DNA of 64,000 nt, from assembly GCA_026874595.1 (NCBI GenBank), contig CM049311.1, positions 47,929,676-47,993,675 on the forward strand. Direction: 5' to 3'. Position 1 is the first letter of the stretch. Each line of letters opens with the position of its first letter. This stretch comes from Sipunculus nudus. Lineage: Eukaryota; Annelida; Sipuncula; Golfingiida; Sipunculidae. Both the position numbers and the translations under genes were made by a program. Below are positions 7,206-62,193 of the stretch, piece after piece. A model generated the notes under the pieces. That model was not told the DNA's origin and did no database searches. It saw only the letters and a program-made list of their open reading frames with translations.

Positions 7206-7985
7206 TTGATTGATAGCCGTAAAACTAATTTGGCATTACGGTCGTGGGCGTGTTTCTTGACAGACTTTTTTAGAGGGATTTGTAGGGAAGGTAAAACCAA
7301 GGATTCATATCTAATTCATTAATTTAAACAAAGCATAAAGGCAGTGATGGCTTGGTGTTGATGTACGTGATAGCGCCGAGACTTTTGTCCTTAATTCCTG
7401 TTCAGCTTCCCATTGATGACTAAATAGTACGCTAAGTCGACCTACTGGAGGATGTAATAAAGACCGGCATTAACGCTTAATTATTCAGTATGACAGAAAA
7501 TATGCTTTTAAAGGATGCACGTACGTCACAGATGAAACCCGTCAATGTTAACGGACACGATAGTTCCGGGAAATTATATTGTATCATTTACCCGGGTTTA
7601 TTTTAAACATCATCGCATCAAGCGGTGTCTTTACCATTTTTTCGCTTTTTGTCATGGCATTTTTGTCCAGTGTACTCTAAAAAGGCAACGTGTTAAGGTA
7701 AAAGACAAACAACATGGCTTTTGGAGTTTGGAGATCTTTTAAGCACAGACAAAAAAGGCCATCAATTTTTGTCCCCTGTGACTTATAGGATTATTTAAAA
7801 ATTTGCAAAAGAGTTATATAGAAATAATCCATCTGGTCTGAAATACTCAAGTCACATCTTTTGTGCAAGTTTCCGTAAAGCCAAAAACCTGTCACGGTCA
7901 GGGTCGGACAGACGATTTTGACGTGTATATTTATCAGGACCAGTTGGTTGTTTATACGAAGCAGACGTGAGGACACACTTTGCAT

Positions 7986-8095
7986 GTGTCAGTGGCGGAT
8001 CCAGAGGGGGCTGAAGCTGGAACCATGGTTATCATTGTTCATCAGTGGCGTAAAGTAATCTTCAAGGGGGGTGGGGGTGGGGGTGTGATAATATA
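7986..8095. repeat. hAT-terminus-like sequences and G-rich tract
   Basis: CAGTGGCGGATCCAGAGGGG (7990-8009) and CAGTGGCGTAAAGTAATC (8044-8061) both resemble the CAGTGGCG termini common to hAT-type MITEs, and both point the same way. A run of G blocks (8067-8088) follows that could form a G-quadruplex. The opposite ends were not found, so these look like remnants that replaced the TATA half of piece b in unit A. Confidence 0.45.
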
Positions 8096-8469
8096 ATATA
8101 TAATATATTAGCGTCTGTATGACACATAACAAACATATTTCAAATAAGGTCAATATAATTATATGCTTGAAATAAGCTCTCAAGCTTAAAAAATTATCAT
8201 ATTCAGTTAGTAAATATATTTCCTGAGTTTTGACATAGCGCTTAAAAGAAATTACACGATACTGACCCAATTTCTGGTTTGTAAATAAAGGGGAATGATA
8301 ATATTTAATCTGATCAATATCAGATAAGTGGGTTTGATATTATGCAGTCTTGAAATGTTCGGTAAGTGCTCACCACAAAAACACCAATGTTTGTGCAATT
8401 TGCCTTGAGAACAATTCTTATCTAACATATTTGACTATATTAGCTTCTTCAAAACATTTACACCTACAC

Positions 8470-9025
8470 AGCGCGTAACCTCCCGGCCCAGTGACCTTCC
8501 ACTCACACGCTGTGAGAAACAGCAGTATTTTTAAGGTTTGGCAACACCCAGTCAGTTTGCGCTTGATAAAGTAAACTCTGATTGGCTCTGCGTTAAAAAA
8601 ATCTGCAGAACTAGTAGAAAAAATCTGATTGGCTTAGCGCGCGTGTAAACAAATATAGCTATGCGGGGCAAGCTCGTGCGGCACGCAATACAGGAAACAG
8701 CAGACAGTGGGAGATAACTGACCTCAGGCAAGTCAGTATACAGACTGTGCTGAAAGCTGACGATTGCATCGTGTGAATTCAAATGGGGTGTGAAAAAAGT
8801 CTGTGCTACCATGCGCTTTCCACAGCAGTGTAAAGTGACCGGTACCTCGAACAAAATCCGTTTGTGCTGGTGATACCTGCAATATGTTTGGTTAAATATA
8901 ACGCAGGAGGAATTCCACAGAGACAGCGACGCCTGGTGGCCAAACCTGCCAGGCAACCGCGGTTTAATGCAGCGGGTAGTGTAGCGAAAATTTGAGCGTA
9001 GCGTAGCCGCTGCTAATGGAGCGTA
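8470..9025. other. Unit-A-specific insertion of unknown type
   Basis: Unit D reads straight through from tttacacctac to aggattgc, whereas unit A has about 550 extra bases here. The block is less AT-rich, contains gcgtagcg repeats near its right end, and holds a 134-codon minus-strand frame (8552-8956) with no family resemblance that I can see. No terminal repeats were resolved. Confidence 0.4.
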
Positions 9026-9330
9026 AGGATTGCAATGCCTAAAATTCCTGACCAGTAGAGTCGAATTCTTGTGAGTTCGATTTTGCGTAAAATATGGTGT
9101 GACTGTTAATCTGTTTGTTACCCTACAGAGTTGTCAAATATATATTTTGACAACCTGTGTTGTTCTTTTAGGTACACCAATTAAACAACCTAAAATCGTC
9201 GATTTTACAACCCTATGTTTTCAGTCTGATCAAGCTGTTTTGGAAAAGGCACGCTTCTCGTTGAAGGATTGAACTCCTGGATACATGAGAAAGAACTCCC
9301 ACCCCCACCCCCCCCCCCCCCCCTTTATAT

Positions 9331-10188
9331 TGCCCTTTATATTGTGTGCGCATGTCTTGCAGATGTCTTTTTTGTTGTGTGACACGGGCGTAACTCGTGT
9401 TGTGGGTGTTTTACTCTCAGTTTAATCCGTGCTGGTTGGGCTCTCGTTGTCATGCTAGCTTGGGGCTTTCTCGCCTGGCCGAGCCGGGGAAAGCTCACGT
9501 GTGAACCCTAAGACATGTTCAATGTATGTTGAGACACGGCATTCGTTGTTCTGGTATGTTCTTTGAACGTGTGTACTTTGTAAGATTCTTTAGAATGTTC
9601 GAGCAATGGAAGGTTCTCGGCTGGAGGTGAAAAGTTATAAATAGAGGCCGTGTTTTAGAGCCGAGAGAGAGGTGAGAGAATATTCCAGGGAACACAGACG
9701 TGTGTATGTCAGTTTGTGGGACCTATTCGATTATCCAGCAATTTTAGGGATTCTACTGTTACTAACTCTATATAATTTAATGCTGCCTGCCTCAAGTTTA
9801 CTTTCTGGATTGCTTTACATTGGACTGTTATTCTCCGAGAGAATTTGTGTGAACTTTTCATCCCGCTTATACATTTAAAGGACTTATCGCTGTGACAGTG
9901 GTATCCAGGTACTGTGCACTTTGTTAATTCTACTGTGTGATTGTATTGATTTGTTGTTATACTGCTGTTATGCTGTGTTATTGTATTGATTTAGTGTATT
10001 GTAATGTTAGGGTTGTTTTAAGAATAAATTATAGTTATTTGTTAACAAAAAAAAACACTGACCTTCTTTATTCATTCCCCTAGACATTTCACGCTGCTTA
10101 GTGTTACAGAATTTGATTTTTCAAATCTCCTTGACAAACTTTATGTTCATAACGCACACGTGATCTGTTGATATCAGGTTCCGTAACA
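9331..10188 (+). mobile_element. Solo LTR, plus orientation, 5' end slightly truncated
   Basis: It aligns with the reverse complement of three other copies here (18953-19814, 58763-59385, 62257-63025). It has a TATA box (TATAAATA, 9636-9643), a poly(A) signal AATAAA (10023-10028), and ends GGTTCCGTAACA, matching the family's 3' terminus. The full 5' terminus is TGTTACAGGTGC; this copy lacks about its first nine bases. No internal region, primer-binding site or second LTR flanks it, so it is a solo LTR or a non-autonomous element. It sits just right of the poly-C tract of unit A. Confidence 0.8.
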
Positions 10189-11765
10189 CTGTACAAGTCC
10201 TCCTTCTAAGCGTAATAGACTGAATAATCCCCGTCCAACATTGGAATAGCAGGTATTAAAATAATGATATTAAATCTCATTTTCTTTTTAAATATGTGCA
10301 TGATATATTCGAATCACAGAATCAAAAGTGATCTCGGTGAAACTCTGGGAACAACTTAGTGTTTACAAAACTGTTATGTCTATCATTATGTTGACATATA
10401 ATATGAAGCCATAAACAAAACTTAATATCAAACAAGGATTAATATAGGTCCGTGAGTTTTACTTCAAAGAATCGCGCTGCCAACTTTTATTGTTACAAAG
10501 CCAACAAACACATGCTTACATGTAAGCAACTCATTTAACGCTTATATCATTCAAAGCCATCGAGTGTATTAGAAGTGCTGAAACATAAAGTTTAGAAATA
10601 CGTCAGCATGTCTGATTTTTTTCTACTCGTCTCTGGGCAAGCTATTTATTTTTCAATTTCCGTTATCCTGCATGGATGGACGCAGCTATTCTGTCAACCA
10701 GATAGTATTCCAACGGTCGCGCAACCACTCATTACTCACAACGAGATACAAGGGACTACCGTTTGTACTTTTGTTATGAAGTCTAATCCGTCCTGCTTCC
10801 AAGACACAAAGGTGGATATCCGCTAACCAGTTCCTCATTCCTAGACTTGTTGTATCAGGTAACGATATTTGGAGAACTTAAATGATACCATCGTCATACA
10901 TACTCTCTTATTTTTCCCACCGAGTGACGTTGCTTTGATTTGTATTTAATGTTTAACGAATCTGTGCTAGTTTCCGGACGAGTAAGCATCCGCCCGATCC
11001 TTTATACCCTTATTTCGATGATCTGAAGGATCGCTACAATTTTTTTCCTATTTATCTATGATCCAACAGAAAGTACCCCCTCAAATATTCCCAGTTGGTT
11101 GTATTATTGACTCATTGACAATTCAGTGCAATTGGGGTTTCAGCCAGACTTGAGACCTAACCTTTTTGGATTTTTCCTATGAACTATAGGCGTATTAATT
11201 TTTCCCTCTGAAATTCTGTTTTAAAAATCCCCCATAATGTACGGTTATGTAATATGTCATCTGCCATCTTTATCATAATTGTATAATTCAAACTGCAACA
11301 ATAATAATAATAAAAATAATAATAAAAAAATAATAATACCATTATTTTAAAAATATCAGAATCTCTACAAAGATCTGGCTTAACCCGTTTCAATATACGA
11401 TTGACATAGCATTCTGACAGAAGCTAGAATAGTTTATATTAATGATAGTCCTTCCAGCTTGTTTCTACGTTGTTGAGTATTATGACATATCCGACTTTCG
11501 AACATTCCCAGCATTTGAGGGTTTCGGAAATGTAATCTGATTCACCGCAGGAGTAAGATCCAGATGGTCAAAATCTTAAATTATGTGGGAGTTTCTGCAA
11601 TGTTTTGTGCGTGGCTTCAGGGAATACTAAACATTCTATCTTAAAGGAGTAAAGCTCATAGTGTATTACCCAAGGATGTGGAGCAACTCCGTTGTAAATT
11701 GTCACGGTTCATGCCTTCCACGCGCGATCTGTCCGTACCTAGCATGACCCTCCCATAATCCCCCT

Positions 11766-12430
11766 TGATACACGGCCCCTGTGACCTTGACCTTTGACCT
11801 TATGAACCAAAATGTATTTATGCTCTCCCCCTACTGGCAAGTCACATAAATGCGCAAGATGGAAAGTTTGTGATTAAAAAGCTTGGCTTAAAATGCAGCC
11901 ATAATCTTTTAAAATAAACGAGTCCTGTGACCTTTGACCTCATGACCCAAAAATCATACAGGTTGTTGATTTGTGGTGGGCCATATGTTAGTCAAGTATA
12001 AAATCATTGTGTCAATCCAACCTGGATTTATCATCTGAAAACAATTTTTGTGGATGGACGGATGGACAGCTGGACAAACGAACAGACAGACATACAGACA
12101 GGGTGATTACTTTAAGGCATCCACTTGTGATCAATAAACACACCAGGTTTTTGGGACATGATTGTTGTAATTTTTTACAAAATAAAATGAAAAATATTCT
12201 TTAAAATAGGAAAAAAATACAGGTGGCGCCACCACTTTTCAGGAACTGTAAAAACTAGTCATGGTGAATATTTAAGGCAAGATTCATGATAATCCATGCA
12301 TTAATTATCAATATATTGCTGGTTTTGTATCAATTTTTTAATTTTTCGGTGGGGGGGGGGGTACTTTCAAGCCCCATAGCTCGGAGGATATAGGTCACAG
12401 TGACGTAATTTCAGGTTTCCAGGAGGACCA
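11766..12430 (+). repeat. Dispersed repeat with 'gaccttgacctttgacc' and 'ggatggacggacag' motifs
   Basis: It interrupts unit A after piece i. Two direct gtgaccttgacctttgacc-type motifs (11780 and 11930 areas) are followed by gatggacggatggacag (12053-12069) and agacagacatacagacag. A ggtggcgccacc motif near 12223 recurs at 35286 and 35436. Sequences of this style are common dispersed non-autonomous repeats in molluscs. Borders are approximate. Confidence 0.5.
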
Positions 12431-13029
12431 CCTTTTTTGGTCCAGACCTTGAAATGAGCCCCCGTATCACGACTACTGGTCCGTGGCGACCGAGGTCCGT
12501 TGGGCAGAAGACACGCTCATCGTTTAGCTTTGACTAGCCCGTGATTGATTAGCTGGGCACATGAGAAAGCCTGCTTTCATCTTTCCAGCCGTTGTTAGGC
12601 TTGTTTATAATACCGCCCAACCTGTTACCAAAACTACACGTATCATGTATATAAGACTCCACGGTCCGTTACAACGTTTGTTGAGTACGGCTGTTAGATT
12701 AGCTTTTAACATACTGATCAATAAGGGGTTTTGGAAACATAACTGACACCACGCACACTTTCAGGTGAGTAAAGTAAAACTGTGACAAATTCCATTTAAT
12801 GATCAAGAATGAACCATATAAATAACACTTAGAATTTGATGTGTTCATTCTGTTCTCACTACGTGTTCGACATCAGACCATCTATGTGAAAAAACTTTTG
12901 AATCATATTCATGTTTGTTATTTATGTTTTTTTTTAATTTTAATTAAAAATAATTAAGCAGGGACAACAGCGTAATATTAATTGAAATACCCATATTATC
13001 GCCTGGGTTAATATTGGCAGACTAATGTA

Positions 13030-13114
13030 CAAGCACCCGCTAACACGACCATCCCCCGCAATTACGACCACTTTGTCTGGTCCCACAGGTGGTCGCGTTA
13101 GCGGGGTTTTACTG
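13030..13114. mobile_element. Short pogo/mariner-like MITE
   Basis: The right end GGGGTTTTACTG abuts TA (13115-13116), and a degraded matching left end lies after TA (13028-13029). Internal ggtggtcgcgttagc and gaccactttg are inverted counterparts. It shares terminus type with 46675-46852 and 54561-55524. Confidence 0.6.
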
Positions 13115-13205
13115 TATATTGCTAATTGCTTTTGCTTGTTTGAAGAACAAGAGGGGACGGAACACTGACGCTTCGGACAAATACAGCAATCCACCCAATA
13201 CATGC

Positions 13206-13428
13206 TGGTCTGTGGCACAGGGGTAGAGCACAAGACTCAGAACCACGAACTGGTCAGTTTGAATCTCAGCCGAGGCGGTGAGATTTCTCGGTCGGTCCGT
13301 ACAAAGGATTAGTGCTCTGCAGGCTTAATGGGAAAACCGTACCCAGCGATCACGTTTCACTCACAAACGAGTGCGCCTTTCGGGGGTTCCTTGGTGGTAT
13401 AACCCAGAAATAGGGGCGATTACAATAT
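13206..13428 (+). repeat. tRNA-derived SINE, copy 1 (family S)
   Basis: The A box lies in tgtggcacaggggtagagc and the B box is GTTTGAATCTC, 30-odd nt later. The body has a conserved tract (gctctgcaggcttaatggg, then tttcactcacaaacgag, then ggtggtataaccca). It stands between piece j and piece b, at the same place as the copy at 22713 and the fragment at 34551. Confidence 0.8.
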
Positions 13429-13489
13429 CAATCTGCTCTGAAATGTTCAAGTCACATGTTTTGCGCAAGTTCCCGTTAAGCCAAAAACC

Positions 13490-13812
13490 TGTCACGGTCA
13501 GGGTCGGACAGACGATTTTGACCTGACTATTTATCAGGACCAGTTGGCTGTTTATACGAAGCAGACATGAGGACAGACTCTGTGCCGCTATATAAAGGTA
13601 TAAGGAAGATAGTAAAAAAAAAACAGGCGGCCCATTGTAAGTGTCGGGTTATCTTAGAATGCGGGTTTGTATGTCCTGGAGGACAATTTTATATCAAGGA
13701 CATTGAAGGACAGCAGAAGGACCTTTATAATAAATATTTGCTTCCGCCTTCGACCCAGACAAGCCAGGAGCAATTCTTTATTCAATTAACCGCACGATAA
13801 TAGCAAAATGAC
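13490..13812 (+). repeat. LTR-like promoter/poly(A) module of unit B
   Basis: The module starts TGTCACGGTCAGGGTCGGAC, has a TATA-like TATATAAAGG near 13590, an AATAAA signal near 13729 about 140 nt on, and ends near aaaatgac. The same layout appears in unit C (from 22990, TATA near 23089, AATAAA near 23224, ending tgtgac) and unit D (from about 28029, TATA near 28130, AATAAA near 28258). Unit A keeps only the first part (7891-7985). TGTCAC at one end, GTGAC at the other and a short TATA-to-AATAAA spacing suggest an old solo LTR carried along in the duplication. No target duplication was seen, so a small host transcription unit remains possible. Confidence 0.45.
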
Positions 13813-15652
13813 TTCATTAGCAGTTAGGCTCCGAACGCTCGCGTGATGTCTGAATAACGTTATGACGGAAAATTGCCTTGTCTTTGGACAAGGCCGTGAA
13901 TTACGCACCGGTGCACAGGGCTCCATATTCGGTCTTGTGGATCTTTCAGTCAAAATCATTGCAAGAATAATAAATGAAACAGTATGTCCTTTTCGGGATG
14001 AAAACTAAGCAATTCTTTCCAGAACTGGTTTATATGGAAATGCTAATATAATCGCATTCTGGCTTTATTATTTGTTTCAATTATATCACATAATTCCTCT
14101 AAAATATATTAAATTTTTGAAATCGTACAGATTTTCTTGAAGTCACGAAAGTGAAACTGAACCCTTCCATCAGAAGTCGTGTCTATTCAAAACAAAACTC
14201 TTCCAGTTATCGATTAAGAGACAGGGGCACTGCTTGTCCCCATTTTCAAAATGCAAAATCAAAATTGAGTCACGATCCAGCAAACAGCCTTCTGTTGACA
14301 TTACACATTACTTGCTTACCACGTTACATAGTTCGTAAAGCCCTTATCCACACAAACAGTCATGGACATGTAATTTGCCTTGAAACACATCTAATCAAAC
14401 ATATTTTCATGGCCATTATTTACTCTCTTTGCGTCATATATATCTACGCCACTTGTGTATTAAGAAGTCATATTGTATAAAGGTGTAATTCTTTTCCCAC
14501 AATCCCTAAACACCAGAGCCAGACTCTTGATTGGCACAGAGTGTAAAAATGGTCGCTGGTGACATCTTCTGCAGTGACGATTAAGTATTTGAATGCTGTT
14601 ATGAATGCTTTTTTACATAAGGTGGACATATAATATTCATTTGGGACATAAAGCAGTTTGCTGGTAAATTGTGAAACATGTTAAGGTAACCTGTATACAT
14701 ATTCTGTTACTATTCATTATAATTTTCTAAGCTTACCTATGATATAATTTTGACGGGGATGTGCCCATAACATATTCTTATATCCTTATAATGAACACCT
14801 AAGAAGGATACGCCATCTGGTTCCAATGTAGCCATGATAAGATGACACTCAGGCCTTCTATAATAACCTGATTGGGGCCTTCGAATCATAATAGAACACC
14901 CATTCAATGGGTGCGATCAAAACATTTGGTGTTTTTCTTTGAGGCTTATCTTTGCTAAATAATAAAGAAAAAATTGTCACACAAAATAACTCTATGGCAC
15001 CGATTCAGACGAAGCTGTTAGCTCGTCATGACGAACGCAAAGACAAACTTTCCAGGTAAAACCATCTTCGTTATCAATAATTGCATGCTGCATTAATACA
15101 CGCAAATTAACCGTGAATGTAATATTTATTATTATTCCCAACAGAATAACGTCATTTTATGTGTTACTTAGGAAAAGTGACAGTTCGACAAGCATATGGA
15201 TATGAGAAAGTACTGTTAGAAATGGCGTGCACATTTGCATATACTAGAATTGATGCGAACCCAAAAGCTTGTATTGCCACCTCAACGTCATCAGTCAGTA
15301 AAATATAGACGTTTGGGTGGCAGGCTGCCTCTAGTTCCAAAGTCGTAGGACGTTGAACAAAAACACTTCATGTTTTACAGGAACAGAAATATACATATTT
15401 ATATAATGTTTTTATGATACGGCATAAGCTCTTCAATAATATTTCAAGTTCTTCTTTTACTTTTTCTCTGACATCTAGTGTGTCTTGTTCCAGGCTAGGA
15501 ATAATCCAGACATAAATAACATCACGTATCCGGCCAAGCTGAAATTTATCATATTTTAGACATTGGTAAGGTTGGAACACAGACTTTAAGCTCAAATGTT
15601 TATTAATTTGACCATCACGCTATTCATATCCATACATATAAGATATTTTACA

Positions 15653-15656
<4 letters not shown>

Positions 15657-15700
<44 letters not shown>
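15657..15700. repeat. (AT)n microsatellite
   Basis: Alternating AT between pieces e and f of unit B, absent at the same place in units C and D. Confidence 0.95.
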
Positions 15701-15703
<3 letters not shown>

Positions 15704-16285
15704 GGATATGGGTGAATAAAATACATAACTGAAAGTCTGCAAACTCACAACATTCACATGAATCATTCCTTCGCACGACCTTGAAAATCAGGTTCATCTG
15801 TGAAGGCAACCTTCCGCGAGCGGTCTTTAATGCTGAAAACGAACCTCTGCCAGATGGGAATTGTGGTGATGGCCAGCACTACTTGTCTCAATGGTCAAAC
15901 ATAAAAATAAAAGTTGTGACATTTCAAGGAAACACCTGTTTACATATCATTTGCGCATGTTTTCAAAATAATACTTATTCCATGAACTCCTTGCCACAAA
16001 AACATCCATGTTTATGCAATTTGCCTTCAAACAATGTTTTTCTGACATATTTGAATGAACCAAAGAGTCCGTCGATTCTGCGCAACGTGGTGTGACTGTT
16101 AAACTGTTTGTTAGAGTGCAAGGTTGTCAAATAGAAATTTGACAACTTGGGTTGTTATTTTAGGTACACCTATTGGAAAACACTAAAGTTGTCGATTTGA
16201 CAACCCAATGTTTCAGTCTGACCAAGCTGTTTTGGAAAAGGCATGCTTCCCGTTGAATGTTTGAACTCCGGGATACATGAGAAAG

Positions 16286-16332
16286 CCCCCCCCCCCCCCC
16301 AACCCCCCCCCCCCCCCCCACACACACACACC
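16286..16332. repeat. Poly-C and (CA)n tract of unit B
   Basis: C runs broken by AA, then cacacacaca. A C tract of different length lies at the same position in unit A (9302-9323), C (26881-26890) and D (31874-31907), marking a fast-changing site inside the tandem unit. Confidence 0.9.
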
Positions 16333-17716
16333 AAAAAATTATCAAGCCGTATAAGTCCTCCACCTCAGCGTGATAGACCTAATAATCCCCGTCCAACATT
16401 GGAATTGCAGGTATTAAAATAATGATATTAAACCTTATGTTCTATTTATATCTGTGCATATTCTGTGATATATTCTGTGATATATTCGAATCACAGACAG
16501 CAAAAGTGATCTCTGTGAGGCACTGGGAGCAAGTTAGTGTTTACAAAACTATCATGGCTATCATTATGTTGACAAAATACATGAAGCCATAAACAAAACT
16601 TAATATCAAACCAGGATTAATAAAGGGCCGTGAGTTTTATTTCAAAGAATCACGTTGCCAAGTATTAATGATACATTGCCAACAAACACATGCTTACATG
16701 TAAGCAACTCATTTAACGCTTATATGATTCAAAACAATCGAGTTTTATAGAATTGTTGAAATTTAAAAGATAGGAAATACGTCAGCCTCTTTGCTGCCGT
16801 CAAAGATTTTTCTACTCCTCTCTAGGCAAGCTATTTATTTTTTTAATTCCGTTATCCTGCATGGGTGGTCGCAACCAGTCTTTCAACCAGATAGTATACC
16901 ATCGGTCGCGCAACCGCTCATTACTCACGAAACACAAGGGACTACGTTTTATACTCTTGTTTTAAAGTCAACTCCGTCCTGCTTCCATGACACAAAGGTG
17001 GATATCCGATAACCAGTTCCTCATTCCTAGACTTGTTGTGTCAGGTAACGATATTTGGAGAACACTTAGGAGAATGATACCATCGTCATATATATTGTCC
17101 TATTTTTTTCCTCGGAATGATGTTGCTTGGATCTGTCTTTTAATGTTTTACGAATCTGTGCTATTTTCCGGACGAGTCAGCATCCGCCTAGCGCCATATC
17201 GGTCCTCTGACATTACGACTACACTACTGGCTGTCAGAGTGTCTTTACGCATTATAAGGCCCCATGAGGACGCAAATATTTTCCTTATTTTTTGACAACG
17301 CCCCTGGCCTACAGGTTCATTGTCAACACGCCTGTCCGGAGATCACTACTCTCTAGTAAAGGAGGTTAGATTAGCCATGGGCATTTGAATAGTGTGGTTA
17401 AAAAAAGCAACATGGCGGCAAGCAGTTAAAACGTGGTACACATCTAGGGAATCTATTTTCTGTAAACTTTTGTTAAACATGAACATAAACATTTATATTT
17501 AGCACTTGTGTTCTCGTGGGCACGTGCATCTGTTATTGGATGCTACGTCACAAATTATACAACCATTCCCCTGCCTGGATAAGTTACAAATGAAATGACA
17601 GGGACATTGGCATTTTACGGTGAACCTCCCAGCGAACATTAAGCCACTTGTACCAATTGTTTAAAGTGAAATATCCATGTTTGAAATGTGCAAGTCCAGC
17701 TTTTATTCCATCTCCT

Positions 17717-17794
17717 AGCATGGTTCCCAGCCTGCCTTGCGCTAGGCTGACGGAGCGACTTGAGCGTAGCGCAAGGCAGGCTCGGAACCATGCT
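17717..17794. repeat. Near-perfect 28-bp hairpin with 22-nt loop
   Basis: The arm at 17717-17744 (agcatggttcccagcctgcc on) pairs with 17767-17794 with one mismatch. The stem is GC-rich in an AT-rich setting and is an isolated strong hairpin, not one of the simple-repeat palindromes. It could be a microRNA-precursor-like fold or a collapsed inverted-repeat element; the sequence alone does not decide. Confidence 0.85.
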
Positions 17795-18892
17795 TGCGAT
17801 CTACCGGCCTGCGACTGAAATGTACATGCGTCTCTGGCATGACGTCACAAGCCAACAGTGCTTTAAAACACGGCGTATTTATATATGACAAACCGGGTAA
17901 CTAGGGTACAACTGCCAGTGACCAAACCATGCGGCCTACCTCATCTTAATTTTACTGTAACAACCCAGGGAAACGCTTTTCGTATTGGTGTTTGAAAATA
18001 AATTTAAAATTTATTAAATACCATACGAATGTTCAATCTTATTAAAATTTACCCCCTAAGCCTTGCTTTCGTTAAACACCCAGTCATTCATCATAATAAT
18101 TTACACTGAACACGGTCACACTAATAGGGTGAAACCCAAATTCCGTAACAGAACTGACATGATTTCATAAAGATTAAATGAAAATTCATGGAAAGCAGGT
18201 GGAAACTAATTAGGGGAAATCCGTGTAATTTGGACCCCTTAAAGAAAATCTTTGAAAATTTTAAATATATAAATCATATAAAAATTGTAAAATCATTTTT
18301 ATTGAGGAACCTGGTACAAGAACACTTTACTGTGAAAGTAGTCTTGCAAAATTAATATTACCGACTTTAAAGTCAGTGACAAAAATAATTAATTCTGGTC
18401 CATATTACACACTCTTAATGTAATATGGACCACATAACAGTGTAATTTGGACCATTACCTCAACAGATTCAAATAAAGTTAATATCTACTTCAAAAGCAG
18501 AAATATTATTTTATACTCTTAAGTGACCAATAATGAAGAAAAACATATAGGCATAAAAGCCAAACATGTTTTCAAGTTTATCATGAAGGAAAAAGAGTTA
18601 TAAAACACATATCGTCGATAATATTCACTGTAAATACAGCTTGCATGGAGGCAAAAATTAAACAAGACAACGTAATACTGCAGTTACAATTAACCTTTTT
18701 TTATTTCAAGTTTAAATCCACTTCAAAAACGGAAATGTTATTTACCTATATATGCATGAAGAAGAACATGCACCTAACATAAAAGCCAGACATGTTTTCT
18801 TATTTATTCCTCAATGGGTGTGCAATTAGTATACTCTCCTGTACAGGACTGTAATAGACTATACCCCCTCCAAATATCAACCCCATATATGC

Positions 18893-18896
<4 letters not shown>

Positions 18897-18952
<56 letters not shown>
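18897..18952. repeat. (AT)n microsatellite, left of LTR
   Basis: About 55 nt of perfect alternating AT. Confidence 0.95.

Positions 18953-18955
<3 letters not shown>

Positions 18956-19810: not shown

Positions 19811-19814
<4 letters not shown>
18953..19814 (-). mobile_element. Solo LTR inside an (AT)n tract
   Basis: The plus strand begins tttacgtaacc (mutated TGTTACGGAACC) and ends CACCTGTAACA. On the minus strand it has a TATA-like ttataaata (about 19550) and an AATAAA signal (19101-19106 as tttatt). Both flanks are long (AT)n runs (18897-18952 and 19815-19868), so it sits within one microsatellite. There is no internal retrotransposon sequence. Confidence 0.8.

Positions 19815-19868
<54 letters not shown>
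19815..19868. repeat. (AT)n microsatellite, right of LTR
   Basis: About 53 nt of perfect alternating AT. Confidence 0.95.
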
Positions 19869-19871
<3 letters not shown>

Positions 19872-19978
19872 GTCGGATGCCCACTTGCCATATTTGCCTT
19901 TTGCTTTCCTGGATACCCGCGTAGTCATGTCGGCTAGTAGGCCTACTAGCCCTTTAAATGAGCTTTTGTTTGTGTAAA

Positions 19979-22712: not shown

Positions 22713-22926
22713 GCCGGTCTATGGCACAGGGGTAGAGCACAGGAGTCAAAACCAGGAGCTGGTGAGTTCGAATCGGTAAGATTTTTCACGGTCGCTCCCT
22801 ACCTAAGATGAGCGCTCTGCAGGCTTAATGGGAAAGCCGTGCTCAGCGACCATATTTCACTCACAAACGAGTGCGCCTTTCGGGGGTTACTCGGCGGTAT
22901 GACCCAGTAATGGTGGCGATTACACA
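22713..22926 (+). repeat. tRNA-derived SINE, copy 2 (family S)
   Basis: Same head and body as copy 1. B box GTTCGAATC (22776-22784) is intact, and a short deletion follows it. Its position between pieces j and b equals that of copy 1. Confidence 0.8.
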
Positions 22927-24474
22927 ATCCAACTGCTATAGAATATTCAGGTCACATGTTTTGCGCAATTTCCCATTAAGGCAAAAACCTGTCACGGTCA
23001 GGGTCGGGCAGACGATGGAGACGTGAATATTTATCCAGACCTGTTGGTTGTTTATACGAAGCAGACGTGAGGACCGACTCTGTGACGCCATATAAAGGTA
23101 TAAGGGAGATAGTTCAGTACTAGGGGCCCATTGTAACTGTCGGGTTATCTCAGAATGCGGGTTGTACATCCTGATGGACGATTTAATAACAAGGACATTA
23201 AAGGCCAGCAGAAAGACCTTTATAATAAATATTTGCTTCAGCCTTCCACCCAGACAAGCCAGGAGCAATTCTTTATTCTATTAACCGCAATGTGACTTCA
23301 TTAGCAGTCAGGCTCTGAACGCCCGCGTGATGTCTGAATAACATTGGACAGAGATTCGCCTTGTCTTCGGACAAGGCCGTGAATTACGCACCGGTGCACA
23401 TGGCTCCATATTTAGTCTTGTAGAGTTTTCAGTCAGAGTTATCAGCCTTCTTAAATAAACTGATAGAGGCCTGCGAGTCATGATGCATGTCATAATAGAA
23501 CACCCATTCTATGGGTGCGATCAAAATATTTGCTGTGAGTTAGTATTTGACACCGGAGGCTTATATGGTCGTGTTATCTATGATAAATAATTAAGAAAAA
23601 ATGTTGTCACACGAAATTAATTACATTAATTACCTCCTTTCTTCACTATAGCACCGATTTACATGAAGCTGTTAGGCCGTCATGACGGACGCAGAGACAA
23701 ACTTTCCGAGTAAAACCATCCTCGTTAATAATAATTGCATGCTGCACAAATACACGCAAATCATCCGTGAATGTTATATTTTTCCCCCCAACAGAATAAG
23801 GTTTTTCAATGTTTTTCCGAGGAAAAGTTGAAGTTTTACAAGCAGATGAATTGAAAAATTACTGTTAGAAATGGCGTGCACATCTGCATATTCTAGAATT
23901 GATGCGAACCCAATAGCTTGTATTGCCACCTCAACGTCTTCAGTTAGTAAAAAATCGACGTTTGGGTGGCAGGCTGCCGCTATACTAATTCCAATGTCGC
24001 AGGAGAAAAAACACTTCGTATTTTACATGAACAAAAATATGTACATTTAGAATGTTTTTATGTTACGGCATAAGCTCTTTCAGTCTGACGACGTGGCAAG
24101 GACATTGCTTTATTTCAAGTTCTTCTTTAACTTTTTTTTTGACTTTTTATGTCTCTTGTACCAGGCTAGGAATAATCTAGACATAACCTGTGATTAACAT
24201 CAGATATCAGGCCCAGCTAAAATTTATCATATTTTCGACATTATCAAGGTAGGAACACAGACTTTAAGCTCAAATGTTTAACAATTTGACCATCACGCAG
24301 TTCTCCATCCATCCATGTTAGACATTTTATACACAAGAAAAATATATAAATGGGACATGGATGAATAAATTAGATAATTGGAAGTCTGCAAACGATACTA
24401 TTGAGCCTCCCTGGGCACGACCTTGAAAATCAGGTTCAGCTGTGAAGGCAACCTTCCCCGAGAGGTCTTTAATA

Positions 24475-25376
24475 TAGTGGTGGACCTATCATCGAGTTTT
24501 TTCAAAAGGCAGTCGGTTTGCTGCCACTTTCAAGCGCTCGATTATCAAAGGCATTTATCGATTACATCATACTCATGATTTTTTTTTCCAGAATGTCTTT
24601 ATGTTATAGGCAAAAATTATTCTTCAATTTTTTACAACATTCCGTGCTTCATATAATGAGTCTGTGTTCCCAAATACCCTCCGTATCTGAGTATGACACG
24701 GTAGATGAGAGAACGGAGGACTTATTAAACCACTGTGAACTGGCAGGGAGCTGCAGAATTAGCGGAGAGTTTTCTAACGAGATGTTCATTGCAAAATATG
24801 GGCGATATGGCGTTAAAATGCTCCATAATTCTCCAGGTCTTTGCCAATTTTGCGAGATTCTCTTAGAAATAATCTCTTCAACTGATGCCAGGTGCCGTTG
24901 CCGCATGAGTTATTATATATTTAGCTTTCAATTACTTTTTTTAAATTGTTATCAAAAATAATATAGGCCTGTAATTTTCCTGGCGGAGTTGTGAAACCAG
25001 TATGTATGTCGGCAGTCGTAATAATTGTTATAAAATGAAAGTCCTTGCTTGTGGTGAAGTTAGAATGATACGCAGGTGTATTCAAGGGGGCCAGTAAGTA
25101 GATGTCCTGGACTGTGGTTTAATTCTTGATTATTATAATTCATTAAAATGAAACTTTGAAAAGCATATCTTAGTAATAATAGGAAAATATAAAAAAGGCA
25201 AAGACTTCTTTTCATGAGGTAAAATTACTCAGATATACGGGTTGGGTTAAGAGAGTACAGTTTCACAGATAATTGCATATTTCTTCATATTTTTCTGAAC
25301 TGATTAATAATCGATCATCGATCGGTTTGCCAAAACCGATGATCGATTATGAAAAAGGAACCGACTCCCACAACTA
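24475..25376. mobile_element. Non-autonomous hAT-like element with perfect 8-bp target duplication
   Basis: CTTTAATA stands on both sides (24467-24474 and 25377-25384), and unit B shows the empty site (ggtctttaatgctgaaaacg). The ends are short inverted repeats: TAGTGGTGG on the left and CCACAACTA on the right. Subterminal atcgatcatcgatcgg and aaccgatgatcgattat form an inverted pair near the right end. An 8-bp duplication with short TIRs is typical of the hAT superfamily. The 147-codon frame at 24518-24961 shows no hAT dimerisation or zinc-finger pattern that I recognise. Confidence 0.85.
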
Positions 25377-25467
25377 CTTTAATACTCAAAACGAACCTCA
25401 AACGAAGCCAGACTGAAATTGTGGGGAGGGCCAGCACTACTCGTCTCAATGGTCAAACATAAAAATT

Positions 25468-26522
25468 AACAAGGCCTACAGGCCTAATGCGAACCTGTGC
25501 AAAGTTTGGGTGTATGAATGGAGGTTTATTTTTTTAAATTTAATATTGATCCTCTATGTCCTGCATATCTAACTTAGTCATAATGATTTCAGCCAAAATG
25601 ACATTTTGGACCTGCACGTTTAGGACTAGGACATTTTAAAACTAGGATGTATCAGTCAGGATATATCGGATATGTTCTTTTTGCCAGGGGGGATTATTGG
25701 GACAGATGAACGGGCAATTTGGCAGCATGGTCTAAACGCCATACAGAGCTTGGACAGTTGCCATGGTGATGTCTGGACCTCACCTGGTTGAAATGAGTGA
25801 CCTCTTGACTTGGCATGTTGAAACCTGGCATGTTGACAAATCTTTTTTCAACACTAAATGCCTTTTTCAATTGGCTACACTGCTTCTTTAAAGCTGCATT
25901 TACCCAATATGTTCTTATAAAACTGGCAGAACCCTACCATAGAATAATTCTTGTAAAGTTTAAACAAATCAGCTTAACAGTTTCATCATAAAACAGTGTA
26001 TAAGCTAGAAGATTCTAAAATTACATTTTTGCTTGTAAACAAAAACCAGATTAATGAAGAAGGCCCCACTAATACCTCAATTTCGTGTATGACTTATGTG
26101 ACAAACATGAGCATAATATTTGGTGATGATAGCTCCAGCCGTTTCTGAGATTTTAATGTTAGTGTGCTTTTTTGGACAGATGACTAAGTTCAACCTCTCG
26201 TAACTCGGCCAAAAATCACCAAACTGGAACCCTTCGAACAAAATTGAGAAAAAAATATTTTCAGGAATCATTTCCGTGAAATATTGGACAATTTGGCTGG
26301 AAAGTTTCGGCGAAGAAGATGTTTAAAGCCTTTTTAGCTTTTTCCATATAAAATCTAAGGAAATGCAGTTAGAAAAAAAATCCGATGGAGTTTTTCAGAT
26401 TACTGATTATTTGCAAAAAAATGGTGATGCTAGCTCCTGCCGTTTTTGAGAAAGCTATGGTTAACGTATAGACGACGCACGATCGACGCACGCCGCACCA
26501 TCGCATAAGCTCACAGGTTCGC
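25468..26522. mobile_element. 1 kb element with perfect 12-bp inner TIR
   Basis: TGCGAACCTGTG (25488-25499) and CACAGGTTCGCA (26512-26523) are exact complements. AAAAATT flanks both sides (25461-25467 and 26523-26529), and unit B shows the uninterrupted aacataaaaataaaag sequence. The right part contains gacgacgcacgatcgacgc followed by catcgcataagctcac, a phrase of a dispersed repeat type widespread in molluscs. Two copies of ggtgatg-tagctcc-gccgttt lie inside (about 26122 and 26422). Whether the 7-bp duplication or the inner TIR marks the true end is unclear. Confidence 0.6.
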
Positions 26523-29109
26523 AAAAATTGTTACATATCACATTTTTTACATATCACCTGCGCATGTTTACAAAATAATACTTATTCCGTGAAGTCCTTA
26601 CCAAAAAAGCACCCATGTTTATGCAATTTGCCTTGAAATAAATTCTTATCCAATATATTTGAATGAACCAGTGAGTCAAATTCTGCGCAATATGGTGTGA
26701 TTGTTAATCTCTTTGTTAGTATTCAGGGTTGTGAAATATATATTTTGACAACCTGCGTTGTTTTTTTAGGTACAACCATTTGACAACCCTACAGTTGTCA
26801 TATGTTTTCATTCTGACAAAGCTGTTTTCGAAGAGGCACGCTTCTCGTTGAAGGTTTGAATTCCGGAATATATGAGAAAGCCCCCCCCCCCAAAAAAAAA
26901 CTTTCAAACCGTATAAGTCTTCATCCTAGCCTTTATAGACTTAATAATCCCCTTCCAAATAAGGATATTAATTGTGTATGACATATTAAAATCACAGACA
27001 GCAAACGTGATCTCTGTGAGACACTGCGAACAACTTAGTGTCTATAAAACTGTCATGACTATGATTACGTTGACAAATTACATGAAGCCATAAACAAAAC
27101 TTAATATCAAACCAGGATTAATATAGGGCCGTCAGTTTTATTTCAAAGAATCACGCCGTCAGGTTTTATTGATGCGTTGCCGACAAACACAAACTTACAT
27201 TTAAGCAGCTCATTTAACGCTTACATGATAACACAACATCGAGTTTTAAGACGTGTTGAAACCTTAATGTTCGGAAATACGTCAGCATGTATGCTGCCCT
27301 CAAAAAATGTTTTGTAACTAAATGCATTTTGATTGATAGCCGTAAAATCAGTTTGGCATAACGGTCGTGGGCGTGTTTCTTGACAGACTTGTTTAGAGGG
27401 ATTTGTGCAGAAGCTAAAACCCAGGATTCATATCTAATTCATTAATTTAAACAAAGCATAAAGGCAGTGACGGCTTGGTGTTGATGTACGTGATAGCGCC
27501 GAGACGTTTGTTCATAATTCCCGTTCAGCTTCCAAGTGACTAAATAGAAAGCTAAGTCGACGTACTTGAGGATGTAATAAAGTCCGGAATTAACGCTAAA
27601 TTATTTAATATGACAGAAAATGTGCTTTTAAAGGATACACGTACGTCACAGATGAAACTCGTCAATGTTAACGGACACGATAGTTCCGGGAAATTATATT
27701 ATATCATTTCCCCAATTTTTTTTTTAAATCTCCTTCGCATCAAGCGGTTTCTTTGCCACTTTTTCGCTTTTGTTATTGGCACTGCAAAATGTCTATATGT
27801 AACTCTAATTTACAATTTACTCTAAAAGGCAACGTGTTAAGGTAAAACACAAACAGCATGGCTTTTGGATTTTGGAGATCTTTTAAGCACAGACAAAATA
27901 AGGGCACATCAACTTTGTCCCCTGTGACTTATTGGATGATTTAAAAATTTGCAAAAGAGTTATATAGAAATCCATCTGCTCTGAAATATTCAAGTCATGT
28001 TTTGTGCAAGTTTCCGTAAAGCAAAAAACCTGTCACGGTCAGGGTCGGACAGACGATTTTTACCTGAATATTTATCAGGACCAGTTGGTTGTTCATACGA
28101 AGCAGACGTGAGGACATACTCTGTGTCGCCATATAAAGGTGAGGGAGATACTCCAGTACCAGGGGACCCATTGTAACTGCCAGGTTTTCTCAGAATGCGG
28201 GCAGAACGTCGGACAATTTTATATCAAGGACATCGAGGGACAGCAACAGGACCTTCATAATAAATATTTGCTTCAGCCTTCCATCCAGACAAGCCAGGAG
28301 CAATTCTTTATTCAATTAACAGCTAGATGACAACAGTGAGACTTCCTTAATTAGCAGTCAGGCCCTAGACACTCGCATGATGTCCATTTAAAATAATATA
28401 AGAGATTCGCCTTTTCTTCGGACAAGGCCGTGAATTACGCACCAGTGCATAGAGCTCCATATAAGTCTTGTGGAGTTTTCAGTCAGAATAATCGCAAAAA
28501 TTATAAATGAAATAGTATGTCCGTTTCCGGATGAAAACTAAGATAAATCTTTATAGAACTGATTTATATTGAAATGCTAATATAATCGTATTCTGGTTTT
28601 ATTATTTGTTTCAATGATATCTCATTATTACTCTAAACTACATTCCATTATTCAAATCGCACACTTAGTCAAAAAGGACAGATATTCAAATAATATTTAT
28701 TTGGGACAAAAACCAATTTGCTGGTTAATTGTGAAACATGTTAAGGTAACCTGTAATAATCCAGACATAACCTGTAATTAACATCATATATCCGGCCCAG
28801 CTGAAATTAATCATATTTTAGACATTGGCAAGATTGGAACATGGACTTTAAGCTCAAATGTTTAATAATTTTACCATCACGCAATTCTCCATCCATAAAT
28901 ATTAGATATTTCACAAACAAGAAAATAAACTGTATAACTGGAGGTCTACAAACGACCACATGAAGCCTTCCTGGGCACGACCTTGAAAATCAGGTTCAGC
29001 TGTGATGGCAACCTTCCCCGATAGTTTTGAAGACTCAAAACTAACCTCAGCCAGATGGGTATTGTGGGGATGGTCAGCACAACTTGTCTCAATGATGAAA
29101 CATAAAAAT

Positions 29110-30229
29110 AATCAAGGGACCCATGGGTTACATCGCTCAGCTATATTATGGAAATTTCAGCAAAAGCAAAATATACTTTTTCTTTTGGTTTTTCATGTAT
29201 GTTAGCAGTTGAAAGCTAAGGGGAAATGGCCCTGCTAAAATGAAACCCTATAAATTATTGAATAATGGACATGAGTAAAAGTATAATAAAAAACATAAAT
29301 TGATTAACTGAAATAAAATGCGGTAAAAATTCAGGTGAGCATTAACAAAATTTAATAAGCATGTTAAAACAAGCCAATTAGTTTTAAATTGCATTTGCAC
29401 TTTAAAATAAATTACACATGTGGCCTGAAACCATTTAATGATGCAAAAGGGGAAAAAATGAGCCTAAGTGTTATATGAAAGGATACATTTCATAAAAAAA
29501 ATGAGTGAATGTAATTATGATTTCAATAATTAAATATATGGCCGTATGAGCTAAAAATTACTCCCACAAAAGTTTGCCCAATATTCCTGATTCACTAAGT
29601 TTAACAGTGTTATTCATATCAAGGCCCAACCAACTTTAAGAAATAAATGAAATGCTACAAATGATTTATATCTTATTAACTCTTTAAACACGGCAGTGAG
29701 CATTTACAGTAGATACTTATATTTTATTATATTTGAATATAAGGTTTTAATCGTGAAAAAGGTAAATAAAATTTCAGAATTGTTCAAGTCTCAACAAAAA
29801 CAAATGAATTTAACACTGAAATTTTAAGATTCATCTTGTTTATTAGTCCTGTGTACTGAAGGGGTGGGTGGGTAGAGGAGTCTCTGTCGTTACTGCTGGT
29901 CGCTGAAAAAATGTGAAATTAATAGATTCATCTTGTTTATTGTAGAGGTCAATAGAATGGGGTGGAGGGAGGGAGGAATGGGGGGGGGGGGGCGGCGGCG
30001 GAATGCTCTCTCTAGTAGTTACTGCAGACAACCTGACCCAGATCACCTAGACAGAGGGGGCTGGCCAGGTTTGAAATGTCATATTATAAAAGTGCAAATC
30101 CATTTCTGTACAAGCTGTGAAAATTAACCTAACAGTGATTACAGTAAGAAAATGTGCCATAGTCAAATTTTGGCAAAATTTAAGGCATTATTGCTGATAA
30201 TTCAAAAAATTTACAAAACTTAATTACAA
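29110..30229. other. Unit-D insertion with internal duplication and G-rich tract
   Basis: This stretch has no counterpart in units A-C. It starts with caagggacccatgggttac, contains two copies of agattcatcttgtttatt about 104 nt apart (29828 and 29926 areas), and has a run of G blocks passing into cggcggcgg (29959-30000). No gene is supported. Confidence 0.45.
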
Positions 30230-30618
30230 AATATAATTTTATGCTGGAAATAAGCTCTATATCCTAAAAAATATCATGTTAAGTGAGAAATATATTTCCG
30301 GAGTTTTGACAAAGTGCATTATGTTTGGGCGCATAGCTTCAAGAAATTACACAAAACTAATCCAAGGAAAAATATGACTATATTAAATTGGATCAATATC
30401 AGATCAGTTGTTTTGATACTATGCAGTCTTGACGTGTAACAATGGGTTTTCAATGGAAATTTTTGGTTTTTCCTTAATATCTCTAAGGAACGAAGTCGTA
30501 GTTACCCAATTTTGATATGGTAAGAGATTTTGGGAACATTTTGATATGGTAAGAGATTTTGTACGCTGAATTTTGGATTAGTATGTCTAACGGTTTCAAA
30601 ACGGACGGATGGACGGTA

Positions 30619-30773
30619 TGTTTAGCCATGCTGTTCTGTTATTTTCATGCTTTTCCCTGATCATATGACATTTGTATCGAAACATACAAAAAGGTCAAAT
30701 ATAAAAAAAAAACGCCCGCCCGCACAGATTTCTGAAAAAAGTTCCAGAGAACCACACCTTTTTTTTGCCTTAT
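30619..30773 (+). repeat. Family R3 repeat, 5'-truncated copy
   Basis: It matches 43510-43677 and 52376-52498: ctgttattttcatg, cctgatcata, ttatcgaaa, cgcccgcc, and a T run with tgcctta at the end. It lies in the unit-D-specific insertion 30440-30820. Confidence 0.7.
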
Positions 30774-31097
30774 TGTCAGCTGAGCTAAATTGTTACATTT
30801 AAAGTAATCGCCTTCTGTTAACATATCACCTGCGCGTGTTTACAAAATAATACTTTTTCCGTGAAGTCGTCACTACAAAAACACCCATGTTTGTGCAATT
30901 TGCCTTGAAAACAATTCTGATCCAGCTTTTCTGAATGAACTACATTTACTTCATTTACACCTACGCCGCTGGTGAAATTAGAACCCTAGTGCATTGTGGG
31001 CATAGGATTGCTATGCCTACAATCCCAGGCCAGTAAAGTCGAATTCTTGCGAGTCCGATTCTGCGAAATATGTGGTGTGTTTGTTAATCTGTTTGTT

Positions 31098-31713
31098 GGT
31101 TGTAACATACTTATTTAACCAGAATTACAAAAATAGCCGTTAGGCTAATGCAATTTTTTTCCTGTGAAACATATATACAAACAAAAATTCAATACAAATA
31201 CATGTTGATTACACGAGAACATAGTTACACTGACATAGTGTGAACAAACATATTCATTTAAAATACAAACACACTCATACGGCACATACAAAAGTGCCTA
31301 TTACATAGTTACATCAGATCCATAAAAGTATCAGACAGTTGAAATGATTACATTTAAAATCAAAATCGTTTTGTGTACCTTGTGTATCTGAATACGTGAC
31401 TAAAGAGTTTAAAATTATCTGTAGTGGTCAGGGAACAGCTGCCACAAAGAAAAATTCTAAATATTTCTAACTTAGTTGTCATAGAGTAATTTTAAGTTAT
31501 ATATGGAAATGTAAAACAGCAAAATTCCTGCAAACTAGCAAGAATTGTGCGTCTCTGTTTAATATAAAGTAGGCAGTCTAAAAAATAATGAACAGTTTCG
31601 TCAACGAGATCACATTCACAAGTTGGCTTTTCGGTTAAGTAGGCCTTAAACAGAATACTGTTTAGGGTGCTGCAGTCACTGCGTAACCGCGTGTGTAGGA
31701 TATAGTCACGTCG
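31098..31713 (-). pseudogene. 5'-truncated non-LTR retrotransposon (LINE) tail
   Basis: On the minus strand, 31713 to the stop at 31492-31494 encodes a classic C-terminal end of a LINE reverse transcriptase protein: DYILHTRLRSDCSTLNS, then KPTCECDLVDETVHYFLDC (CxC-H-C zinc-knuckle pattern), then a basic LLYIKQRR. About 400 nt of presumed 3' UTR follow. TTGTT occurs on both sides (31093-31097 and 31714-31718), and the tandem copy of piece g in units A-C lacks the insert. The polymerase and endonuclease domains are missing, so it is a dead copy. The clade (CR1, jockey or similar) cannot be told from this tail. Confidence 0.82.
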
Positions 31714-33084
31714 TTGTTACCATACAGGGCTGTCAAATAGATATTTTGACAACCTGGGTTGTTTTAGGTTCACCCATTAGACAACCCTAAAGTTGTCGAA
31801 TTGACAACCTTATGTTTTCAGTCTGACCAAGCTTTTCTTTGGAAATGGCATGCTTCTCGTTGAAGGTTTGAACCCCCCCCCCCCCCCCCCACTCCCCCCC
31901 AAAAAATACTATCAACCCGTTTAGGTTCTCCTCTTTGGTGTAACAGACATAATAATCCCCGTCAAACATTGGAATCGCAGGTATTAAAATAATGATATTA
32001 AACCTCATGTTCTTTTAAATCCGTGCGTGATATACTAGAATCAAAGACAGCAAAAGTGATCTCTGTGACATACTGGGAACAACTTAGTGTTTACAAAACT
32101 GTCAAGGCTATCATTATGTTGATGAATTACATAAAGCCATAAACAGAACTTAATATCCATCCAGGGTTAATATAGTGCCGTGAGTTTTATTTCAAAGAAT
32201 CACGCTGCCAAGTTGTACTGATACATTGCCAGCAAACACAAACTTACATGTAAGCAACTCATTTAACGCATATAACATTCAAAACCATTGAGTTTATAAG
32301 ACGTGTTCACCCCTTGAGGTTAGGAAATACGTCAGCATGTCTGCTGCCAACAAAGATTTTTTTTCTACTCGTCACTTGGCAAGCTATTCATTTTTCAATT
32401 TCCGTTATCCTGCATGTTTGGCCGCAGCCATTCTGACAAAGATAGTGTTCCATTGGTCGCGCACCCGCTCATTACTCACGAGACACAAGAGACTACGTTT
32501 TTTCTCTAGTTTGAAAGCCAACTCCGTCCTGTTTCCAAGACACAAAGTTGATATGCGCTAACAAGTTCCTCATTCCTAGACATGTTGTGTCAGGTAACGA
32601 TATTTAGAGAACATTTAAATGATACCATCGTCATACAAACTCCTAGTTTTTTCCCTCCGAATGATGTTGCTTCGATCTGTATTTAATGTTTGATGACTCT
32701 GTGCTATAGTTTCTGGACGAGTCAGCATCCGCCCGATCCGTCGTTATACCCTTATTTTGATGATCTGAGGGATGGCCTACAATTTTTTTTCCTACTTATC
32801 TATAATCCAACAGAACGTATCCCCTCATATATTTCCAGCTGACTGTATTTTTGCCAGTGGACTGATGGACAATTCAGTGCAACGGGGGTTTCAGCCAGAC
32901 TTGAGACCTAACCTTTTTGTATTTTTCCTGCGAACTATCGGTGTATTAAATTTTCCCTCTGAAATTCAGTTTTAAAAATCCCAAATGATGTACGGCTATG
33001 TAATATGTCGGCTGTCATCTTTATCATTATTTTATAATTTTATAATTCAAGTTGCAACAACAACAATAATAGTAATAATAATTA

Positions 33085-33098
33085 TAATATCATTATTA

Positions 33099-33130
<32 letters not shown>
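33085..33130. repeat. (ATT)n microsatellite in piece i
   Basis: It follows caacaacaacaataatagtaataat. Shorter relatives lie at the same spot in unit A (11298-11338) and unit B (21825-21860), another length-variable site within the unit. Confidence 0.85.
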
Positions 33131-33620
33131 TCAAAATCAGAATCTCTAAAAAGATCTGGCCTAAACTGTCTCAACCTACAGGTTAAACATGGCATTCTGA
33201 AAAAGCTAGGATGGTCACTATCACTATCTCTCGGCTTGGTTTTACGTTGTTATTATACGTTACGTTTTATGTCAGGACACATTCGACCTTCGAACATTCC
33301 CAGCATGAAATCTGATTCACGCAGGTCTAAAATCCAGATGGTCAAAATCTCAAATTATGTAGGAGATTTCTGCAATGTTTTGTGCGTGGCTGCAGGGAAC
33401 ACTACAACATTTTATCTTAAAGGTAGTAAAGCTCATAGTGCATTGCCAAAGGATATGGAGCAACTCTGTTAAAGTCACGGTTCATGTTTTCCACGCGCGA
33501 ACTGTCCGTACCTAGCATGGCCCTCCCATAATCCCTTTTGTTAGACGGTTCATTGCCGGGATTTAACAATTGTTTTCCATATAGAAAACTACATAGAAAA
33601 TCAGTACAAATTACAACACA

Positions 33621-33997
33621 CAGGAGCGTCAATGTAGGGGTGGGGGGTACACACACACACTTTTTGGCAAGGGGGGGGGGGGGGGGGGCAATTTAATCAT
33701 CCCCCAACCTTTCAAAGAATAATATTTATATATTGCAAAAAAATAAATTAATAAATAAAATTATAGAATTTGCATGGTTTTATTCATGAGTTTACTATGA
33801 AATATTATATCTACACAGCATAGAAAAATAATACTGTATATGAAATGTGATTAAGAATATATATTTCAAATGTGTAATACAAGCGCTAATATATTTTAAA
33901 TGTGTATTACAGAGTCTAAAAAATGTTTGTGAATATATATATGTGTAGGTGTGTGTTCCAGTTAACCCCCCACATTGGAAGAAAAATGACGCCACTG
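33621..33997. mobile_element. hAT-like MITE with 8-bp target duplication
   Basis: The ends CAGGAGCGTCA and TGACGCCACTG are inverted with two mismatches. Flanks acaacaca (33613-33620) and acaccaca (33998-34005) match at 7 of 8 positions. Unit B has the empty site (about 22150-22170). Internally, gtaggggtgggggg and cccccccaca extend the inverted similarity. A (CA)n and a poly-G run lie near the left end. It is non-coding. Confidence 0.8.
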
Positions 33998-34550
33998 ACA
34001 CCACACCCCAGCCTTCCTACCTTTCATCTCGTGTAGTTATATGAATTACTGATATAATATTAATGCATTAATACGTTTATTTCAGGTTTATTATGCACCT
34101 GCTGTTCTACAGTACGTATAACAATATGTCAGTTTTAACCCCCACAAAACAGGTAATTTCATGTTTTCCATTATTAATAATGTGCCTATTTATATATGTC
34201 GAAAGATTATGATATTAAATTTAAATGTTCAAAATTAAGGTTAATGCCAATAGATATTTCTAAATTTGGCTTGTATTTTTACCTGATATATAAATTTGTT
34301 ATATATTCGTCTTTACTCTAAAAATGACCCTGGTGTTTGTGTTTGAATGGGTGCAAGCATATCATTTTTTTTTTTCACTATATACATTTAAACGCCAAGT
34401 AAGTAATGAAATATTATGTATTTACATGTTACAACCTAGGAAGTTTTGTGGTTGGAAGATATATTGCAAATAGATTTTGCTGGTTTGAAGAACAAGAGGC
34501 GACAGAACACTTAAGACTCCGGACAAACAGCAATGCACCCAATAAACATA

Positions 34551-34598
34551 CTGGTCTGTGGCTTAGGGGTAGAGCACAGGACTCAAAGCCGGATCAAA
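34551..34598 (+). repeat. tRNA-derived SINE fragment (family S)
   Basis: Only the A-box half survives (ctgtggcttaggggtagagc through ctcaaagccgg), again just after piece j, now of unit D. A piece resembling the family's 3' tail (tataaaatgagag, about 36000) lies beyond the next element. Confidence 0.7.
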
Positions 34599-62186: not shown

Positions 62187-62193
62187 TATATAC

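Follow-up and report, generated by a model that had tools for sequence, protein, structure and literature searches.

Results

The window, that is, the whole stretch of 64,000 nucleotides analyzed here (C6:47929676-47993675), contains one exon of a neuromedin-U/pyrokinin/CAPA-type receptor gene and four head-to-tail, co-linear copies (units A to D) of one large unit. The exon encodes TM3-5, and splice signals place it at C6:47966932-47967480; its frame matched the Pfam family 7tm_1 (E=2e-27) and, in the PDB, neuromedin-U receptor 1 best (E=3.4e-28). No further receptor exons were found within the window, and a plus-strand NPFLY motif (30097) was dismissed because it lies in a short frame with no helix-like run before it. 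A TM6-7 probe matched C6:47918521-47918664 (52%, TM6) and C6:47917130-47917231 (65%, TM7) on the same strand as the exon, 11-13 kb to the left of the window. The TM6 exon is preceded by a TTTTGTAG acceptor, continues the window exon in frame and phase, and is followed by a GTGAGT donor, and the TM7 exon contains NPILY. With splice sites and phase that fit, the intron from the end of the window exon (C6:47966932) to the start of the TM6 exon (C6:47918660) measures 48,271 bp, and the whole array (C6:47936880-47964265) lies inside it, on the 3' side of the TM3-5 exon.

Self-BLAST of the window places the unit starts at 7205, 13427, 22926, and 27328, bearing out the starts given in the first-pass annotation (7206, 13433, 22928, and 27320) and yielding the co-linear off-diagonals that a dot-plot was expected to show at that spacing. 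Within 7205-34590, 41 self-matches of at least 60 bp were detected (39 plus, 2 minus). All but three connect different units (38/41; 37 plus, 1 minus), the lone minus match being an inserted dispersed element, and 14,521 of the 14,893 bases aligned in the 37 plus matches (97.5%) lie on the best co-linear chain for each unit pair. The off-chain bases stem from block e, of which unit B carries a weak additional copy (14163-14411, 63%); the three matches within B represent this copy, the (AT)n edges of an element, and a short duplication. Conversely, 20/20 first-order Markov resamples were without any match of at least 60 bp. The array thus consists of adjoining, same-orientation, co-linear copies of more than 1 kb, as a tandem segmental duplication does. 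Of the ordered blocks said to recur in every copy, the order proved common to A-D, but no unit carries every block (Table 1): in A, a large part of the middle and the bulk of j are missing, and C is cut off at 27313 within h. Stretches with no match in the other units occupy 9331-10190 and 11776-13114 in A, 17189-21512 in B, about 24473-25377 in C, and about 31111-31680 in D. Outside the shared blocks, D 30619-30766 matches 43518-43666 and 52380-52467 in the window.

Table 1. Coordinates of the receptor exon, the units with their blocks, and the inserted repeats (window positions).
Feature	Position	Strand	Parts, evidence, or remarks
TM3-5 exon, neuromedin-U/pyrokinin/CAPA-type receptor	37257-37805 (open frame 37198-37836)	-	Pfam, PDB, splice sites
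Unit A	7205-13208	+	Co-linear matches to B, C, D; upstream block 7205-7826; start of a 7827-7982; 8152-8434; 9042-9323; h-i 10191-11775; j remnant 13115-13208
Unit B	13427-22723	+	Self-BLAST and alignment of units; a 13427-14129; c 14627-14695; d 14853-15911 including dispersed repeat; e 15911-16060; g 16072-16318; h 16349-17188; i 21513-22157; j 22150-22723
Unit C	22926-27313	+	Self-BLAST and alignment of units; a 22926-23443; d 23445-24473 and 25377-25474; e-h 26523-27313; ends inside h
Unit D	27328-34590	+	Self-BLAST and alignment of units; upstream block 27328-27969; a 27970-28663; c-d 28687-29117; 30230-30437; e 30787-30940; f 31004-31100; g 31714-31876; h-i 31925-33620; j 33998-34550; then first ~40 bp of SINE-like repeat
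Upstream block	A 7205-7826; D 27328-27969		A and D only
Block a	A 7827-7982; B 13427-14129; C 22926-23443; D 27970-28663
Block c	B 14627-14695; D 28687-28755
Block d	B 14853-15911; C 23445-24473 and 25377-25474; D 28755-29117
A-D match	A 8152-8358; D 30230-30437
Block e	A 8358-8434; B 15911-16060; C 26525-26668; D 30787-30940
Block g	A 9077-9323; B 16072-16318; C 26671-26892; D 31714-31876
Block h	A 10191-10994; B 16349-17188; C 26973-27313; D 31925-32733
Block i	A 10985-11775; B 21513-22157; D 32724-33620
Block j	B 22150-22723; D 33998-34550		Remnant in A from 13115
SINE-like dispersed repeat, A/B junction	13209-13425	+	Aligned with copies at 22724, 41274, 45126, 61490
SINE-like repeat, B/C junction	22724-22925	+	Flanks same as at A/B
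Dispersed-element insertion in A	9331-10190	-	Self-BLAST
Insertion in B	14696-15499	.	Common to C (same right end); 14853-15342 is a dispersed repeat
B stretch between h and i, 4.3 kb	17189-21512	.	No match in other units

The A/B and B/C junctions are alike, with 13115-13959 and 22627-23442 matching at 82% in an alignment that runs through the junction. At both, a SINE-like repeat sits between j and a, and D stops about 40 bp into the same repeat. Copies of this family, whose body is well conserved, occur in the window at 13209-13425, 22724-22925, 41274-41501, 45126-45344, and 61490-61695, and when the 45126 copy was searched against the genome, 39 of the 40 scored matches lay elsewhere (2949 first-look candidates). 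Its head appears tRNA-like by eye, a reading called by no tool. More than one junction type exists within the array, since block h is joined to the upstream block at C/D. The repeat thus occupies copy junctions (A/B and B/C), as in SINE-mediated duplication; recombination between two SINE copies flanking an ancestral unit does not fit, because in A and D block a follows the upstream block and not a SINE. A break at the SINE repaired by end joining may have occurred.

Other repeats entered the units. The element inserted in A (9331-10190) has further copies in the window at about 18885-19870, 58762-59376, and 62186-63083, which it matches over 18948-19654, 58763-59376, and 62252-63023; the 18885-19870 copy, with (TA)n/(AT)n edges, lies in the 4.3-kb stretch of B. 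Some copies of this family are flanked by (TA)n/(AT)n tracts, as if inserting into or carrying them. When the first part of block d (14853-15342) was searched, 45 of the 47 genome matches listed lay elsewhere (1521 first-look candidates, 40 scored), a core of about 340 bp being the most widespread. Junction comparison showed that the block d insertion is cleanly absent from D; therefore, the dispersed part of d is an insertion and not an original component of the unit. Two other tandem arrays were also seen in the window: a minisatellite at 58023-58762 (units of about 58-77 bp), which adjoins the dispersed-element copy at 58762, and a GACA-rich repeat with a 150-bp unit at 63331-63971, close to the window end.

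Next to this dispersed material, the remaining blocks searched proved local. Searches of the assembly (1,426,538,692 bases, 153 contigs) covered a, j, the upstream block, h-i, and part of d. Every match of block a (13427-14129; 4/4), block j (33998-34550; 3/3), and the upstream block (7205-7826; 2/2, in A and D) fell inside the array. For h-i (31925-33548; 40 of 82 candidates scored), 5 of the 132 listed matches were in the array, and the others were short and all within query 1093-1225, around a (TAT)n tract in block i (33088-33130). These counts are lower bounds because only the best candidates were scored and very common words were skipped; the evidence for confinement of these four blocks to the locus is strong, if short of exhaustive. 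The expectation that copies would be confined to this locus was accordingly upheld for a, j, the upstream block, and h-i (bar the (TAT)n tract), which come from one locus and form no dispersed family, but not for the dispersed part of d.

This distribution bears on the proposal that a large mobile element, non-autonomous or composite, makes up the unit and was amplified here in tandem. The array holds many mobile elements, block d includes a dispersed repeat, and all unit pairs are nearly equally diverged, as such an element might allow. However, in a search of 1.43 Gb the blocks a, j, upstream, and h-i were found only locally (the (TAT)n tract excepted), the repeat in d is an insertion, and Pfam six-frame scans detected no transposition domain. 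A transposon array, whether LTR, LARD, Helitron, or composite, should have a dispersed unit, which this is not; a transposition protein domain or remnant was likewise not seen in 7201-27002 and 27328-34592, a result that non-autonomous elements would also give. Given the confinement of the four blocks, the mobile-element reading is strongly disfavoured and highly unlikely, and the composite transposon suggested earlier finds no support.

The unit alignment, which is meaningful solely within matched blocks, was used to estimate divergence. Over homologous columns, whose ranges were picked after viewing the alignment and which leave out A columns lacking true counterparts, the differences were 247/1697 (AB), 120/694 (AC), 330/2459 (AD), 184/1206 (BC), 422/2648 (BD), and 196/1181 (CD), a range of 0.134-0.173 (JC 0.148-0.197). 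The divergence check thus yielded copy pairs that are 13-17% different. At an illustrative rate of 3e-9 changes per site per year, the array divergence corresponds to about 25-33 million years. The least diverged stretch is the upstream block of A and D (66/621 differences, 10.6%), suggesting a later event or gene conversion. Informative sites were sparse and conflicting in how they group the units: block a (133 columns) gave AD|BC 3, AC|BD 1, and AB|CD 0, and f-h (535 columns) gave AB|CD 6, AC|BD 3, and AD|BC 1. Two rare marks, the j-SINE-a junction and the dispersed repeat in d that is absent from D, unite B and C, and A and D have the upstream block in common. This conflict may stem from exchange between copies.

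A macrosatellite, another of the earlier suggestions and considered here as an array still changing in copy number, would share the multi-kb tandem unit seen here, as do DXZ4 and D4Z4. Unlike those systems, and unlike the many near-identical, homogenised units of a macrosatellite, the array has only four units that differ by 0.134-0.173 and are truncated, interrupted, and joined by more than one junction type. The array is almost certainly not of this kind.

The first-pass annotation also stated that no copy contains a convincing gene, and this held in the tests made. Codon phase in mismatches was absent across 26 matches (chi-square on the 13 largest, smallest p 0.10), 40/237 gaps were multiples of three, and a sliding scan of nine pair-blocks gave a smallest p of 0.036, uncorrected (B-C, 16491-16670). 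Six-frame Pfam scans with X at stops, covering 7201-27002 and 27328-34592, found no family at E up to 0.5-1, and the same procedure recovered the receptor exon at 86.8 bits. Individually scanned frames in the array gave Pfam matches far below cut-off (CHORD, E=0.15, 8552-9133; DUF3834, E=0.22, 24473-24961), and PDB searches with the two longest block-a frames gave Sec13 at E=0.063 as the best match for one and nothing for the other. A coding gene in the units was rejected on the basis of codon phase, Pfam, and these PDB searches. A phage or virus origin was rejected as well, because neither block a of D searched against phages nor a 25-mer of block a searched against viral contigs found a match.

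In favour of a tandem gene cluster, of a regulatory RNA or otherwise, that has since decayed, block a carries identical-base runs of 25-29 and slightly uneven conservation. On the other side, no Rfam family reached its gathering score in the window; 11 weaker matches (E up to 1, 7205-34700) all fell on two (AT)n tracts in the 4.3-kb stretch of B. Folding z-scores for three stretches on both strands ranged from -0.61 to 0.52, showing no excess, and the lack of codon phase and the block-a PDB results also speak against such a cluster. An RNA gene in the units was rejected by Rfam, ARAGORN (bacterial code), and folding. With neither a known RNA family nor a structured conserved core in these tests, and with at most weak unevenness of conservation, the regulatory-RNA cluster put forward earlier was not borne out, and a decayed gene cluster of either type is very unlikely.

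The unevenness in block a of B, C, and D was weak (variance p=0.014, best 60 columns p=0.046, longest run p=0.058). Conservation variance over f-i in A, B, and D gave p=0.048, and no constraint was seen in f-h across all four units (p=0.53, 0.86, 0.53). Where unit A is included, the initial statistics for blocks a and e are inflated, since past 7982 this unit lacks a true counterpart of block a, and its alignment in e is poor.

Discussion

Very probably, the array arose long ago by tandem segmental duplication within an intron, with a breakpoint in or close to a SINE, and then underwent drift, insertions, and truncation. A several-kb non-coding segment in an intron of the neuromedin-U/CAPA-type receptor gene would have been duplicated in tandem several times. 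One breakpoint, probably at or near the SINE-like repeat downstream of j, would have produced the j-SINE-a junction common to A/B and B/C, and a second, in which a cut in block h was joined to the upstream block, would have produced the C/D junction. We infer that the copies then drifted, probably neutrally and with little or no detectable constraint, gained mobile elements, and underwent truncation.

Like tandem segmental duplications with a junction repeat, the array consists of head-to-tail, otherwise locus-specific copies and has the SINE-like repeat at the same junction twice; unlike them, it is old and decayed and lacks the arrangement expected from SINE-SINE recombination. Interspersed repeats at duplication junctions may be compared with "transposable element-mediated rearrangements" (PMC9675761). 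Among the papers listed by general literature searches, none dealt with this locus.

The amplification of a long, apparently non-coding unit in tandem is confirmed by the co-linear copies, in which the tests made recognised no gene or RNA. Calling it unusual was an overstatement because the array sits in a 48-kb intron; it is a real yet ordinary feature. Its relevance lies mainly in annotation, where the region is best labelled an old segmental duplication within an intron and not a new transposon or gene family. Its four copies of one non-coding sequence provide a local yardstick of drift, and the recurring junctions offer a worked case of a SINE-like repeat at sites of duplication.

One 25-base sequence in block a is identical in all four units (7883-7907, 13483-13507, 22983-23007, and 28024-28048; longest run p=0.053) and is present a single time in each unit; even at up to three mismatches, the window holds no further match. 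Since these 25 bases are identical in 4/4 intronic copies against 13-17% drift around them, block a might serve the receptor gene as an enhancer-like element, its multiplied copies having been retained, a reading that we consider decidedly unlikely. The 25-mer contains putative GGTCA-like half-sites.
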